Below the pieces are notes generated by a model. The model saw only the letters and a list, made by a program, of their open reading frames with translations. It searched no databases and was not told where the DNA came from. This document shows, piece by piece, positions 2,478-19,269 of a stretch of DNA of 32,439 nucleotides (within the stretch, counting starts at the first letter, position 1; the number at the start of each line of letters is the position of its first letter). The stretch lies in assembly GCA_002840935.1 (NCBI GenBank), contig PHDH01000015.1, forward strand, positions 1-32,439, written 5' to 3'. This DNA is from Bacteroidetes bacterium HGW-Bacteroidetes-21 (lineage in GTDB: Bacteria; Bacteroidota; Bacteroidia; Bacteroidales; GWA2-32-17). Position numbers and translations under genes: made by a program.

Positions 2478-3255
2478 ATGATGAATAGAATATTGTTGTC
2501 ATTGTTAATGTTTTATACTCTGCCTTCTTTTGGACAGATTGATATTATTAATTTAAGTTTGACTGATTCCACTAAAAATATTTTATATAGTGGGGGGGGG
2601 GGCCACAAATTTGATTAAAATCATTGGAATAGAGAATAAAACTAATATAATGTTAATTTCAAATGTAAGAAGTTATAAAGTCGATAGAAATAGGTGTGAT
2701 TTATACCATCTTTATCCATATTTAGAGAAATCAGATACATTAAAAGTTCTAGTAGGTGATTGTGTCGCTTTTTCAAAACAATTTGATTGTCTCTCGTTTC
2801 CTAATTATAAAACAGTATTAGGTGAAACTAATGATACTGCGTTAACTAATACGGAGATTGTAAACAATCCCTTTTTGAATTTAGTGCTTATTGATTGTTT
2901 TTATAAAGTCGATTACCATGTTGTTAGATATGATATTAGTTTTTTATTGAAAAAAAGTAAAATTAAACTTCCCAAAAGAATAGGTGAATATAGATTAGTT
3001 ATTAAAAGACGAAAACAATTGTATGAATCAAATTTAATCCCAATAGATGAGCCAAAGTATCGTCTTCATATCAGTTTCGAAAAAGATTATAAAGTATTAA
3101 ACACAACTGTTTATGAGAATAAACTACCTAAAGAACATCTTGATATAATAAACTTAATGCAATCTGGGGATAAATTAGTTTTTGATAATATAATCATTCG
3201 GAAAAATGATGGAGCTGATGTAAATATTGGTCCATTAACAATTACAATTAAATAG
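2478..3255 (+). CDS. Secreted GldM C-terminal-domain-like protein, reading frame broken at a G11 tract
   Basis: ATG at 2478 gives signal peptide MMNRILLSLLMFYTLPSFGQ, then ...DSTKNILYSGGGGHKFD* stops right after G11 (2592-2602). Removing one G joins it to the 221-aa ORF at 2590 (...SGGGATNLIKIIGIENKTN...). NxLYxG...NxIKI and GDKLVFDNIIIRKNDG..VNIGPLTITIK resemble the GldM C-terminal domain. Confidence 0.55.
2592..2602 (+). repeat. G11 homopolymer tract inside a coding region
   Basis: Direct read: atagtGGGGGGGGGGGccaca. Confidence 0.95.
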
Positions 3256-3271
3256 TACAGTGGGTAATTCA

Positions 3272-3334
3272 GCATAGCATTCTGCAATAAAAATCTTTTG
3301 GCGGGTTGAAAAAGTTGGTGTAATTTGCACAATG
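3272..3334 (+). repeat. 63-bp direct repeat, copy 1
   Basis: gcatagcattctgcaataaaaatcttttggcgggttgaaaaagttggtgtaatttgcacaatg; 5 mismatches against 4232-4294. Confidence 0.93.
3296..3327 (+). promoter_or_regulatory. Candidate Bacteroidetes-type -33/-7 promoter for 3370..4212, lying within repeat copy 1
   Basis: TTTTG, 20 nt, TAATTTG (close to TTTG-N19-21-TAnnTTTG, with the -7 one base short), about 40 nt upstream of the ATG at 3370. Confidence 0.4.
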
Positions 3335-3369
3335 CCAAGTGTGAAAATGTCCCCAGCAAAATTAAAACT

Positions 3370-4212
3370 ATGAAAAGGCACTTTAGTTTATTGTTCATTT
3401 TATTGCCTGTCATTAGCATGGCTCAATTTGATTATATTGATCAGAAGGCATTATATGTTACTCATAAGATAAAAAGTATTATAAGTGTTTATCATGACGA
3501 AGACACAAATGAGAATCGAGAAATATGGAAAATTGATTCTACAGGTAGAATGATTTCATATCAACTACATACATTATGGGGAGAGACATATCTTGGTTCA
3601 ACTGAATGGAAATACAATGGGACCCTATTATCAACATGTACAGATATTGGGGATTACGGTAAAAAAAACCATAAAATTGATACAGCAAGAACAATATACT
3701 TATATAATGACTCTCAATTATTAGTAAAAACCAAGTTCACATGGCCAATAGACGAAGACACTTTAATAACTGAATATAAATATATTAATGGACTTATTAT
3801 TTGTGAAAGTATTTTTTATGGAAATTATCAAAATGGATATAAAACATATTCATATGAAGACATTGTCTCGACAAAATCAAAAACGGTTTCTATTACTGAA
3901 TTTTATAATAATAATGTCAGTTTTATTCCTTTTATTAAAACTATGAAGTATTATGATACATTAGGAATAATTCAAACAGAAATTGAATACAATTTTATTA
4001 AGGAATGTTCAATTCCTTCGATTATTAAAACATTTATATATGATAATGGAAAACTTATAAGAATAAAAGAACTCTATATTGTTGATGACTCAGATAAGCC
4101 ACATGAGTATAATGATGAAATATTTGAATATAATGAGAAAGGTCTAGTATCAAAAGTATTAACCATCAACAATGGGTCTTCGGAAAGTTATTGTACATAT
4201 GAATATGAATAA
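3370..4212 (+). CDS. Hypothetical secreted protein (signal peptide, beta-rich Tyr/Asn-rich repeats)
   Basis: MKRHFSLLFILLPVISMAQ signal peptide; the ORF track extends upstream to 3325 but the signal peptide favours 3370. Confidence 0.75.
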   Translation: MKRHFSLLFILLPVISMAQFDYIDQKALYVTHKIKSIISVYHDEDTNENREIWKIDSTGRMISYQLHTLWGETYLGSTEWKYNGTLLSTCTDIGDYGKKNHKIDTARTIYLYNDSQLLVKTKFTWPIDEDTLITEYKYINGLIICESIFYGNYQNGYKTYSYEDIVSTKSKTVSITEFYNNNVSFIPFIKTMKYYDTLGIIQTEIEYNFIKECSIPSIIKTFIYDNGKLIRIKELYIVDDSDKPHEYNDEIFEYNEKGLVSKVLTINNGSSESYCTYEYE

Positions 4213-4231
4213 GATACAAGTGTTGATGCGC

Positions 4232-4294
4232 GCATAGAATTCTGCAATAAAAATCTTTTAGCGGGTAGAAAACGTTGGTGTAGTTTGCACAATG
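4232..4294 (+). repeat. 63-bp direct repeat, copy 2
   Basis: gcatagaattctgcaataaaaatcttttagcgggtagaaaacgttggtgtagtttgcacaatg, exactly 960 bp from copy 1. Confidence 0.93.
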
Positions 4295-4362
4295 AGTTAA
4301 TCGAAGTATCTTAAAGTAATACCCAATTAATTTGCGCTTAGTTGCTTTTCCCAACCGTATTT

Positions 4363-4926
4363 CTAGTTTATTTCTTTTTTTATCTCAATTGCTAATCGGT
4401 TTAAAACTTTCCAATCATTTGTTTTTTGAAATTCAACAATATTTGGATAAACACCATTAAATTTATCATTACAAGTCATTATTGACTCATCAAAAGTCTT
4501 AAGTAATTCTTTTTCGGAATCATTAAATGCTTCATTAATTATTTTGTTGTCGATTCGATAAAAATTTTCCCATTGTTGAAATAGTTCCTGTAATTGATTT
4601 AAATCGCTTTCTGAATCTTGAAATTCAAGTTGTTTTTCTTTTGATGTCCACAATTCAAGATTCTCTATTATACTGTTACGAGACATTCTAATGAAATTCG
4701 AATCATATATTTCATCACTTATAGCTTTTATCCTATTTTCTTTTCGAATTTTTTTAATTCTGAATAAATAAAAAGGCACATAATAAACATTAAGAATCAC
4801 AAGCATTATCAGACGATTTGTATTCTTGTCATATTTATTCAAAAACCAAATGCAATAAATCCAAAGAATCATTGCAATTGAATAGATAATAGGGAATACT
4901 ATCTTAAAGATTATTGAATCATGCAT
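4363..4926 (-). CDS. Hypothetical membrane protein (two N-terminal TM helices and a cytoplasmic helical tail)
   Basis: MHDSIIFKIVFPIIYSIAMILWIYCIWFL...LIMLVILNVYYVPFYLF. Real ATG is probably at 4926; the track's start at 4968 is a TTG inside a hairpin arm. Confidence 0.65.
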   Translation of the reverse strand: MHDSIIFKIVFPIIYSIAMILWIYCIWFLNKYDKNTNRLIMLVILNVYYVPFYLFRIKKIRKENRIKAISDEIYDSNFIRMSRNSIIENLELWTSKEKQLEFQDSESDLNQLQELFQQWENFYRIDNKIINEAFNDSEKELLKTFDESIMTCNDKFNGVYPNIVEFQKTNDWKVLNRLAIEIKKEIN

Positions 4927-4951
4927 AATTTGTTCTTTCGTTTTTATATGG

Positions 4952-5049
4952 ATGGTAACGGTTCGCAAACAGGCGAATACTGCAAATCTGTAACTTTATA
5001 ATCAATGCTTGCCTCTTTCATGTAGTTACGATTGTTTGCTGTTAGCCAT
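4952..5049. repeat. Large imperfect inverted repeat, attC-like
   Basis: ATGGTAACggttcGCAAACA (4952-4971) pairs with TGTTTGCtGTTAgCCAT (5033-5049). Nested AATCtGTAACT (4985-4995) pairs with AGTTACGATT (5024-5033) with one bulged T. Confidence 0.65.
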
Positions 5050-15779: not shown

Positions 15780-16406
15780 TTAAGAATAATAATCTTCAAA
15801 TGTTTTACAATCCATTAGTTTTGGCTGCTGTAAATTATGATATTTATCGGTAGGGATTTTACTAACTGATTTTACTAACATATCAGTTAATGAAGTTGAC
15901 ATTTGGCCTAAATAAACCAACGAGAAAGTCAGATATTCAAGTGGATTATTATCAATTTTAATATCAGTTAGAATAGTATAGTTTTTAGGAATACTATAGT
16001 ATTCTTGTTTTTCTCTGCCGTTTAAATTATTATTAGCTTTATTTACAATTAAAGATAAAATTGATAAGCTATCTCTAATTTTGCCAATAAAATCAAATTT
16101 ATCAACTTGTAATTGTAATTTTTTAGTATTAGTTATTTTTGGGTTTTTAAGAATCTCGATTGAACTTTTCATTTCAATAAAATCAATACATTCTCTATCA
16201 ATAATTATTTTAAGTGCATCACATGATTTTATTGTATCTAATTGGTATTCACGTACTATTAATTCTTTTGTTCTGTCAAAATCAATTACTTCTACTTTTG
16301 ATTTTTTATAACAATTTTTATCAAGTTTCCCAACTTCCAAAATAACAAAGTATTTTTTATCTATCCCAAACTGGAATAACTTTGTTAATATCTGACTTAT
16401 TGCCAT
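15780..16406 (-). CDS. Hypothetical protein with a PD-(D/E)XK nuclease-like motif
   Basis: IKSCDALKIIIDRECIDFIEMKSS fits a D...(E)xK pattern; start overlaps the end of the upstream ATPase gene by 10 bp. Confidence 0.5.
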   Translation of the reverse strand: MAISQILTKLFQFGIDKKYFVILEVGKLDKNCYKKSKVEVIDFDRTKELIVREYQLDTIKSCDALKIIIDRECIDFIEMKSSIEILKNPKITNTKKLQLQVDKFDFIGKIRDSLSILSLIVNKANNNLNGREKQEYYSIPKNYTILTDIKIDNNPLEYLTFSLVYLGQMSTSLTDMLVKSVSKIPTDKYHNLQQPKLMDCKTFEDYYS

Positions 16407-18229
16407 ACAATTTCTTTTAATGGTTCAGCAAGTTTTGAGAAAATAATATTTAAATTATTACTGACATCTGTTATTGTTGATTGCGTCTCTCCGTCCTCGA
16501 TTTCAGCATAATAATAGCTCGTTTTATTTTTTAATTGAGATAATTCGCTATAATACTTTAATGCTTGAATAATATAGGGGCTATGAGAGCTGATTATAAC
16601 TGAAATATCATTTCTGACTAAATCAATAATCATTTTAGCATATTCAATTTGCCATTGAGGATGAAGATGATTTTCTGGCTCGTCAATTATTAATAAACTT
16701 TTGTCATTTAACATATTACCTTGTAGTAATAGCTGAATTATGCCAAATGATTTTATTCCAGATGCAGTGTTCGCAGGTTTTATTTGAATATTTTTATGTT
16801 TATCAATTTTTTGCGAAAAAATAAAATCTCGATTGTTTTTGTCAAATGTAAATCCACCTTTGATTATAGTAGAAATATTTTTTATACATTCAATGAAATT
16901 TAAATTATTCTCAAATAGTGTATTTGAAAAATATTTTGCATTCTCAATTTTAGAAATTAAATCTTTGATGTGTAAAGAAACCTTAGGTCTAGTTCTTTGA
17001 AAAGAATTTATTTCGCTTCTATCACTTTCAAACAAAGTATCCGAGGATTGAATTAAATCATACATTTGAAGCAACAACGGAGTTTCTATATATACAACAT
17101 CTTTAAACATAAGTTCATCAAATAGGTTTAATGAGCTAATTTGGTTTTTGTCAAATTCTATTTCCAATATTTGATTTGTGCCTGCATTGTAATTTATATA
17201 TGACTTTCTTGAGGAACCTTTAGGTGTTATTTCAGATTGAAATTCAGAAAATAATGCTCTTGTTAATGCTCGCTTTATTTGGTCGTTCTTATTTTCATTT
17301 GAAAGTAAATCCTTTTTTATTTCTAATAGGATATTTGTACAATCTTGTTGTATACTTGTAGGATATTTTAAAAGCAAATTCTGTTTGTAATCAAAAAATT
17401 TATTTAATTGTTCTAACTCATATTCAGGAAATATTGACGCTTGGTTGGTTTCAAATAATTTTTTTATTTGATTTTGAAATATTCTAGGATTAAACTCATC
17501 TCTACTAAACTCATCTTTTCCAAATTCAGGAACTCTTCTTAATCGAAAATAAAGTTTTTCAATTTTGGAGAAAACAATTTGTTCTTTACTTTCATTTAAG
17601 TCTTGTTCATATCTACTAATTGCTTTAACAATTGAAAATATTAGCTTGCCAACTGTGCTTTTTCCGGTGTCGTTTATTCCAGCAATAACAGTAAGACCAT
17701 TCAATTTAATCCTTGCAGATTTAATCTTGCCTATATTTCTAATTTCAAAAATTTCATCCAAATTTTCACCTATGTGTTTAGTGATTTTTAAAGGATTAGT
17801 TTTATAATATACAGGATTGCTATTGAATTGAAAATCATTAATGCTAAAATGTTCTATTTTTGAAGCTTTCTCAAATATTATTGCATATCTTTCATTTAAA
17901 ACATTGTCCTTTATAATTCCATTTACTCTTTGAGTTATCCAATCTCCAAACAAATCTTGATGATATTTAATTGCTTTTTTAAATTCAATTCTATTATATA
18001 AATCTTTAACACTTAGTATTTCTTTAATTTCTGCAATAAAATACTTACCCCTATCATTTCCACCAGCAGCAATTAAAATTTTATCAAATTGTTTTCCTTT
18101 ATTCAAATTAAATTTCCAAGCCAAAGAAATTCCAAACACTTTTACTTTTTGAATTGGAGTGATTGTTTCAGCTACACAAATCCCAGAAAACTTGGGTAAA
18201 TCCTTTTCTATTAAATCTTTAATATTCAT
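16397..18229 (-). CDS. AAA family (SMC/OLD/AAA_15-21-like) ATPase with N-terminal extension
   Basis: Walker A AGINDTGKST, signature-like NTASGIKSFGIIQLLLQG, Walker B KSLLIIDEPENHLHPQWQ, switch VIISSHSPYIIQAL; about 165-aa extra N-terminal domain. Confidence 0.9.
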   Translation of the reverse strand: MNIKDLIEKDLPKFSGICVAETITPIQKVKVFGISLAWKFNLNKGKQFDKILIAAGGNDRGKYFIAEIKEILSVKDLYNRIEFKKAIKYHQDLFGDWITQRVNGIIKDNVLNERYAIIFEKASKIEHFSINDFQFNSNPVYYKTNPLKITKHIGENLDEIFEIRNIGKIKSARIKLNGLTVIAGINDTGKSTVGKLIFSIVKAISRYEQDLNESKEQIVFSKIEKLYFRLRRVPEFGKDEFSRDEFNPRIFQNQIKKLFETNQASIFPEYELEQLNKFFDYKQNLLLKYPTSIQQDCTNILLEIKKDLLSNENKNDQIKRALTRALFSEFQSEITPKGSSRKSYINYNAGTNQILEIEFDKNQISSLNLFDELMFKDVVYIETPLLLQMYDLIQSSDTLFESDRSEINSFQRTRPKVSLHIKDLISKIENAKYFSNTLFENNLNFIECIKNISTIIKGGFTFDKNNRDFIFSQKIDKHKNIQIKPANTASGIKSFGIIQLLLQGNMLNDKSLLIIDEPENHLHPQWQIEYAKMIIDLVRNDISVIISSHSPYIIQALKYYSELSQLKNKTSYYYAEIEDGETQSTITDVSNNLNIIFSKLAEPLKEIVWQ

Positions 18230-18410: not shown

Positions 18411-18728
18411 TTAAACTTTATACTCAGGAAAATACAACATTATATTTACATCATTTAGATATACATCACAAGCAATAGGAGATACTTTTGCCTCTTCTTG
18501 TTTAATTATTATTTTGGGATTTCGCAAATCAACCAGTTGATCCTTTAATAACTTTTCAAGTTTTTCTTTTGCGTATTTTGCAGCAGACGTCCCATGTGGA
18601 GGTGTGAAAGATCCCCAAATTCGTAAAATATCGCCTTCTAATATAGTGCCATTTGGATTTTTCCAAGACCACATTGGTGAAACTTTGATAGTGTCAAAGT
18701 TTATTATTTCTGTAACTTTAAATTTCAT
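18411..18728 (-). CDS. Small SNase (thermonuclease)-like fold protein, probably catalytically inactive
   Basis: VTEIINFDTIKV...GDILRIWGSFTPPHGTSAAKYAKEKLEKLLKDQLVDL...CDVYLNDVNI follows the SNase layout but lacks the Glu43/Arg87 equivalents. Confidence 0.5.
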   Translation of the reverse strand: MKFKVTEIINFDTIKVSPMWSWKNPNGTILEGDILRIWGSFTPPHGTSAAKYAKEKLEKLLKDQLVDLRNPKIIIKQEEAKVSPIACDVYLNDVNIMLYFPEYKV

Positions 18729-18732
18729 AATC

Positions 18733-19269
18733 TTAAGTATTAGGCGTTTCAGTAATTGCAGGATTTAAAACATCTTGTTTCGTATCGAAGTTTAATTTCC
18801 GCTTAGTCTCTATTATAATGCAAAATAACTGATATAAAACAAATAGCCCATATGTAAAAAATACTCCACTTAATATTAAACAAGAAATTCTCACAAATGG
18901 AAAGTTAATAGATTTCACATATTCCTTTATATAAATATAGCAGATTACGAGTATTAATGCTAATATTAAAGGAATAAATAATCTTAATATTTGTCTTTTG
19001 GGGTTTAATAATTTCAATTGTTTTTTAGCACGTGACTTATTCTTAGTTAGAGATTTAAGGCTATCTTTTATTGTTTTTTCGAAATCTTCTGAATCATTTT
19101 GAACATTCATCTTTGTTATTTTTTCAATCTGTTTAATTTCTTCCTCATTTCTTGCTTTAAACTTTTCAACTCCATCTATGAAAACATTTAGTAGTAGAGT
19201 TATAGCAGGTGCAATAAAACTTAGAATTGAAATTAACAGTTTTGAATAAATCGAAATAATTTCTTTCAT
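18733..19269 (-). CDS. Hypothetical membrane protein
   Basis: Three hydrophobic segments (ISILSFIAPAITLLLNVFI, LFIPLILALILVICYIYI, CLILSGVFFTYGLFVLYQLFCIII); 4 bp upstream of the SNase-like gene on the same strand. Confidence 0.65.
   Translation of the reverse strand: MKEIISIYSKLLISILSFIAPAITLLLNVFIDGVEKFKARNEEEIKQIEKITKMNVQNDSEDFEKTIKDSLKSLTKNKSRAKKQLKLLNPKRQILRLFIPLILALILVICYIYIKEYVKSINFPFVRISCLILSGVFFTYGLFVLYQLFCIIIETKRKLNFDTKQDVLNPAITETPNT

Follow-up and report, generated by a model that had tools for sequence, protein, structure and literature searches.

The question raised by this locus is whether two overlapping genes in an AT-rich part of a Bacteroidota chromosome form an anti-phage system, and whether such a system would be new. 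The pair lies on a single 32-kb contig from a Bacteroidota metagenome bin, and this whole stretch of 32,439 nucleotides is referred to here as the window. The initial annotation described an OLD/AAA_15-like ATPase gene overlapping by 10 bp a gene for a 208-aa protein with a nuclease-like motif, placed the pair in an AT-rich block between conserved genes, considered it a candidate uncharacterised defence module with no obvious match to Septu, Gabija or PARIS, and named structure prediction, co-occurrence of the two families and a PADLOC search as checks. Both reading frames and their overlap were found where that annotation had put them, on the minus strand (Table 1), and the ATPase gene is transcribed first, followed by the gene for the 208-aa protein. 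The block between 15.5 and 19.4 kb has a GC content of 24-31% compared to 38-44% in the flanking conserved genes, which bears out its description as AT-rich. The annotation's feature list was right about the ATPase and its partner but overlooked an additional N-terminal domain of the ATPase.

Table 1. Positions in the window of the two genes, their overlap and the N-terminal domain of the ATPase
Feature	Position	Strand	Basis
OLD-type ABC ATPase, 610 aa	16397-18229	-	ORF list, Pfam, motif conservation
PD-(D/E)XK-like nuclease (putative effector), 208 aa	15780-16406	-	ORF list, 15-member alignment, AF2 model, hhalign
PUA-superfamily-like beta barrel (predicted), ATPase N-terminal domain, aa 1-155	17765-18229	-	alignment, model, Foldseek
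10-bp ATPase/nuclease overlap ATGGCAATAA	16397-16406	-	nuclease start codon within last ATPase codons

The conserved genes flanking the block are folK, infB and nusA, together with genes for secreted proteins, and the pair stands alone among these housekeeping genes with no known defence gene adjoining it. No tRNA was found when the window was scanned, no integrase was present among the genes identified in the window, and a search for flanking direct repeats as insertion marks gave only short AT-rich matches that look like chance. Two hypothetical ORFs of 105 aa and 178 aa (18411-18728 and 18733-19269, minus strand) lie directly upstream of the ATPase inside the AT-rich block. The 178-aa ORF has likely membrane helices, no convincing database match was found for either, and both were rejected as further parts of the system because they are absent beside the pair at other loci. 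A second AT-rich block (window 2500-5000, about 28% GC) carries the hypothetical ORFs 2590-3255, 3325-4212 and 4363-4968, none with a convincing Pfam match, and is possibly another insertion.

The motifs and domain matches of the 610-aa protein identify it as an OLD-type ABC ATPase, in keeping with the initial annotation. Pfam places AAA_21 (E 3e-15) and AAA_15 (E 3.6e-15) on it, with a weak SMC_N match, and the motifs first quoted for it are present. Its motifs are a Walker A motif (GINDTGKST), a signature-like motif (NTASGIKSFG), a Walker B/D-loop region (LLIIDEPENHLHP, IIDEPENHLHP) and an H-loop (SSHSP). The Walker A, signature, Walker B, D-loop and H-loop motifs are invariant or nearly so in 15 sequences. 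Among solved structures, sequence searching identified retron/Septu PtuA, an OLD protein and AriA as relatives, and the nearest PADLOC models are HEC-02A and PD-T4-4_A, alongside matches to many other ATPase models.

The 208-aa partner has no family name in Pfam, PADLOC, NCBIfam or PHROGs, and a PDB sequence search with the nuclease profile gave no useful match. An alignment of 15 complete sequences showed that G14, F20, I41, D42, F43, D44, T46, K47, S61, D63, F76, E78, K80, K109, S113 and D148 are invariant. D63, E78 and K80 (KSCDALK ... IDFIEMK) form the putative active site, preceded by a family signature, VIDFDxTK, and this nuclease-like motif, which had been noticed at the outset, ranks with the best conserved regions of the protein. 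In the AlphaFold2 (AF2) model (pLDDT 82.8, pTM 0.81) D63 begins a strand (64-68) and E78-x-K80 ends another (73-80), followed by a helix (106-123) and a further strand (141-147). PD-(D/E)XK nucleases commonly have this core order, alpha-beta(D)-beta(ExK)-alpha-beta, so the check by structure prediction favoured a nuclease fold, though no Foldseek match to the PDB was significant (best E 0.08). The top two of these non-significant matches were HamA of Hachiman, itself a PD-(D/E)XK nuclease and listed as an E138A/K140A mutant structure, and the third was MUS81; a fold search of BFVD with the nuclease also returned nothing significant. Taken together, conservation and predicted topology strongly suggest a PD-(D/E)XK nuclease fold.

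The proposed co-occurrence of the two families was examined with a profile built from five partners, which detected 16 nuclease loci in GTDB genomes. A single Thiomargarita assembly contributes two of them, on separate contigs, and one of these contigs does not extend to the ATPase; with that contig left out and the window included, 16 loci could be judged for pairing. The ATPase gene lies directly upstream on the same strand in all 16, so the pairing of the window is conserved in other genomes far beyond chance. The distance between the two genes ranges from -19 to +16 nt, with an overlap at 13 of the 16 loci, and at nine it is exactly 10 bp. The window ATPase ends in ...EIVWQ*, and the GTATGG encoding the conserved Val-Trp (VW) is the source of the nuclease start codon. 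Because exactly the same overlap length recurs at 9 of 16 loci, the overlap probably serves translational coupling of the ATPase and nuclease. Both genes are also under purifying selection when the window is compared with its nearest relative, L015 (nuclease: dS 0.74, dN 0.25, dN/dS about 0.33; ATPase: dS 1.23, dN 0.12, dN/dS 0.10).

The partner is encoded in genomes of at least four phyla. It occurs in Bacteroidota, Gammaproteobacteria (Methylococcales, Thiotrichaceae, Parabeggiatoa, Thiomargarita), Bacillota (Bacillus, Paenibacillus) and Sumerlaeota. Among 198 related genomes there were only five strong matches, the window itself included, with a sixth at E 3e-4, and a further phylum sample of 396 genomes contained no convincing match besides the window. 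Since the family is so rare and scattered among the sampled genomes, its occurrence has the pattern of a horizontally moving module. Family members often stand alone between housekeeping genes and not in defence islands; in Methylomonas (L020:4673-6624) the pair is inserted between an ftsB-like gene and ispD, within the usual eno-ftsB-ispD-ispF order. In two Thiomargarita nelsonii contigs (L029:6001-6228 and L030:27-254) the nuclease ORF ends after 75 aa, just before the E-x-K motif, and a stop at the identical point in both represents either an assembly break or a gene interruption.

Residues 1-155 of the ATPase are missing from most family members and are fused to the ATPase in the window, L015, L017 and L022. 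In L016 the same domain is a separate 146-aa gene located 5 bp upstream of the ATPase, and identity across the aligned copies is 39-72%. The L016 ATPase is sister to the fused clade in the ATPase tree with support of 93/68, which is not decisive; this placement of the separate gene is consistent with the domain having been gained as an upstream gene and fused later. The model of the domain is confident (pLDDT 87.6, pTM 0.82) and gave Foldseek matches that were almost all, at the top, members of the PUA superfamily (ASCH, YTH, EVE, PD-T4-3). The leading match was an ASCH protein of Zymomonas (probability 0.98, TM about 0.5), and others included YTH m6A readers, the 5hmC-specific nuclease PD-T4-3, EVE-type archaeal proteins and the m5C-binding N-domain of McrB. 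Because the best E value is a marginal 0.015, a PUA-superfamily-like fold is likely and not proven. The sequence of the domain has no significant match to PUA/ASCH/EVE/YTH domains or to PD-T4-3, and searching viral contigs with it found nothing.

A remote copy of the domain (E 7.6e-19) occurs in another genome (L056) on a different, degenerate-looking ATPase; the domain looks like a modular sensor. The L056 protein (L056:1495-3123) is ATPase-like with a degenerate-looking Walker A motif (VSQTNHYKTS), and its gene lies beside those of an hflX-like GTPase and of a restriction-modification-like methylase. EVE and ASCH domains have been described as modified-base binders in restriction contexts (PMC7641849), and a term search of the text of that EVE survey found no fusion of a PUA-like domain to an OLD-type ABC ATPase. 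The predicted fold suggests that the N-terminal domain makes the window protein a sensor of modified nucleic acid attached to an ATPase-gated nuclease. Because most family members are without the domain, sensing by this domain cannot be the common mechanism of the family.

The alternative that survives best concerns this domain. WonAB, from the WASA-1 prophage of Vibrio cholerae, is an ABC ATPase with a PD-(D/E)xK nuclease that acts by abortive infection, and its authors group it with PD-T4-4 and an 'OLD-ABC ATPase + novel REase' operon in a larger family (PMC12137116). The window pair may be an ordinary member of that WonAB / 'OLD-ABC ATPase + novel REase' family whose N-terminal domain is an accessory with no sensory role of its own. 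The two-gene plan and the motifs match, and homologues of the wider operon, WonAB included, occur in about 1% of bacterial genomes (PMC12137116). However, a domain that is conserved at this level, that persists in separate and in fused form and that recurs in L056 suggests a function of its own. We regard the ordinary-member explanation as quite possible without expecting it to be correct.

Mobile relatives of the pair were found through the ATPase. A search of IMG/VR with the ATPase profile identified about 29 viral or prophage contigs with full-length homologues, mostly at 30-39% identity, and in nearly all of them an ORF of about 205 aa comes next, overlaps the ATPase gene and carries the motifs FDxV...KSPDALF...LYFIEFKEG...DIRxKIHEG. 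This prophage branch was reached only by way of the ATPase alignment; searches of phages, plasmids and viral contigs with the window nuclease found nothing. Comparison of the two nuclease families with hhalign aligned them at E 3.8e-10 (probability 96.7%), pairing D63, E78 and K80 of the window with D66, E79 and K81 of the prophage family. Of 5426 complete E. coli genomes, 8 carry the sister pair, and in the two chromosomes that were inspected its place is a P2-like prophage, with the replication endonuclease gene (gene A) on one side and the portal gene on the other. Rousset et al. reported this gpA-gpQ interval of P2-like prophages as an anti-phage hotspot that also holds old and tin (PMC9122126). 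One such pair (L138:12001-13936, E. coli NZ_CP025849.1) consists of WP_001220547.1 and WP_000624949.1 (phrog_14430, phrog_25533), and RefSeq names the E. coli proteins 'AAA family ATPase' and 'hypothetical protein'.

Pairs that are less closely related are found on a mobilizable 5.9-kb Klebsiella plasmid, on an Acinetobacter plasmid and on a faecal phage-like contig. The pair on the Klebsiella plasmid (L048:3028-4993, pMB6975_2) begins directly after the replication gene. In two viral contigs (L076:6307-6882 and L077:6307-6882) a nuclease homologue detected with the A3 profile (E 9.7e-15) is without the D and E-x-K residues (PSVNGLLF...LAFVRTES) and still overlaps its ATPase gene; it is apparently a natural inactive version.

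The relatives in the prophage hotspot and on plasmids are the main evidence for a defence role of the pair. Because a sister branch occupies a published anti-phage hotspot and distant pairs are carried by plasmids, an anti-phage function of the window pair is likely, judged from pairing, mobility and hotspot location. We consider it probable, with reasonable confidence, that the pair is an anti-phage module of the OLD-ABC-ATPase plus PD-(D/E)XK nuclease kind, and that it probably works by abortive infection. Points against this reading are the solitary position of the window pair among housekeeping genes and the Foldseek matches, which are not significant for the nuclease and marginal for the N-terminal domain.

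The pair could also be a toxin-antitoxin-like stabilisation module in which the nuclease is the toxin, the ATPase is the antitoxin and phage defence is incidental; the overlapping two-gene operon, the small effector, the plasmid-borne relatives and the patchy distribution speak for it. However, the gene order is regulator then effector, the ATPase is large, the sister pairs occupy a defence hotspot, and the WonAB ATPase is needed for toxicity and does not neutralise it (PMC12137116). This makes a toxin-antitoxin module unlikely. Slightly less credit is given to the idea that the partner, though PD-(D/E)XK-like in fold, has no catalytic activity, or that it acts by binding and not by cutting. 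The loss of E-x-K in the paired L076/L077 homologue (VRTES) means that non-cutting versions probably exist, and the Foldseek support for a nuclease fold is weak, but D63, E78 and K80 are invariant in the 15 complete members and the prophage branch has the corresponding D, E and K. Finally, a host DNA-repair or recombination ATPase-nuclease pair of the SbcCD/RecF-like kind, unrelated to phages, is very improbable despite the resemblance of OLD/ABC ATPases to RecF/SMC proteins, seen here as the weak SMC_N match, and the housekeeping surroundings of the pair, because the family turns up sparsely and patchily (5 strong matches in 198 genomes, window included) and has relatives on prophages and plasmids.

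The anti-phage reading can be extended into a mechanism, largely by analogy with WonAB. The ATPase would act as a dimer, bind and hydrolyse ATP, and hold the small nuclease, which would be translationally coupled to it through the 10-bp overlap. In the Bacteroidota branch the PUA-like domain, probably gained as an upstream gene and then fused, would sense the trigger, most likely a nucleic acid that is modified or foreign and arises during infection. Once triggered, the ATPase would license the nuclease in an ATP-dependent way, and the licensed nuclease would cut nucleic acid (DNA or RNA), stopping the phage and probably the cell. The whole would be an immune module of three parts: a PUA/EVE/YTH-like reader of modified nucleic acid would control an OLD-type ABC ATPase, which in turn would license a PD-(D/E)XK nuclease. 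We put this proposal forward tentatively. If it is true, recognition in the manner of type IV (modification-dependent) restriction has been joined here to an ATPase-gated abortive-infection effector. The branch also amounts to a natural experiment, with one ATPase-nuclease core whose reader-like domain may be encoded apart, fused on or absent, and this variation makes the question of what the ATPase senses directly testable. In addition, the chromosomal Bacteroidota pair is now linked to an easily testable, unnamed pair in the E. coli P2 hotspot.

Comparison with known systems bears out the statement that the pair does not match Septu, Gabija or PARIS, since a test of the partner or of a TOPRIM domain fails for each. 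Septu (PtuAB) and retron PtuA have an OLD/PtuA-type ABC ATPase, and PtuA-type PDB chains match the window ATPase (5e-10 to 2e-7), but the Septu partner is an HNH nuclease whereas the window partner has a D/E-x-K signature. Septu was rejected because neither Pfam nor PADLOC found an HNH/PtuB match and other residues are conserved in the partner. PARIS (AriAB), Gabija (GajA) and OLD share the AAA_15/AAA_21 ATPase core, but their effector is a TOPRIM domain or protein; all three were rejected because Pfam scans of the ATPase and the partner showed no TOPRIM or DUF4435.

The PADLOC search left the partner unrecognised. HEC-02, a Hma-embedded candidate of PADLOC, also combines an ATPase with a PD-(D/E)XK-like protein, and HEC-02A is the best PADLOC model for the window ATPase (E 3e-27), though the best stretch covers only positions 168-303 of 338, its second half. 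The HEC-02 ATPases form a separate clade in the ATPase tree (support 100/99), isolated members of the window family match HEC-02B weakly (best 2.1e-5), and a comparison of the nuclease profiles of the two families was marginal (E 0.023). HEC-02 was rejected on the partner, as the window nuclease has no HEC-02B match. PD-T4-4 of E. coli (Vassallo et al. 2022, PMC9519451), listed with a PD-(D/E)XK nuclease (PMC10952713), is similar in that the window ATPase matches PD-T4-4_A over nearly its whole length (E 5.8e-26, 3-385/460), but this match is not specific. The window partner has no PD-T4-4_B match, the PD-T4-4_B-like proteins of L050/L051 differ from it in sequence pattern, and a search of the window genome with PDLC04034 (PD-T4-4_B) gave no match, so PD-T4-4 was also rejected on the partner.

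The nearest characterised kind, as far as a comparison by description goes, is WonAB. Both have two genes, an OLD-type ABC ATPase followed by a small PD-(D/E)xK nuclease, with ABC motifs and mobile or prophage-borne relatives; the differences are that WonB is 16 kDa whereas the window nuclease has 208 aa, and that the window ATPase has an added PUA-like domain. In WonAB, active-site mutants of either the ATPase or the nuclease abolish defence, the toxicity of the nuclease needs the ATPase, and activation halts translation while leaving the chromosome undegraded (PMC12137116). Only in 2025 were ABC-ATPase sensors that are paired with nucleases described as a larger family, one still to be characterised (PMC12137116). 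The description of the pair as uncharacterised thus holds for the branch seen in the window and not for the general plan, which has been published as WonAB, 'OLD-ABC ATPase + novel REase' and PD-T4-4 (PMC12137116). The ATPase-nuclease core appears to be an uncharacterised branch of that family, of the same broad kind as WonAB. The PUA-like domain, which shares its predicted beta-barrel fold with PUA/ASCH/EVE/YTH domains and PD-T4-3 but in the window sits on an OLD-type ABC ATPase, is the distinctive and most novel part of the module.
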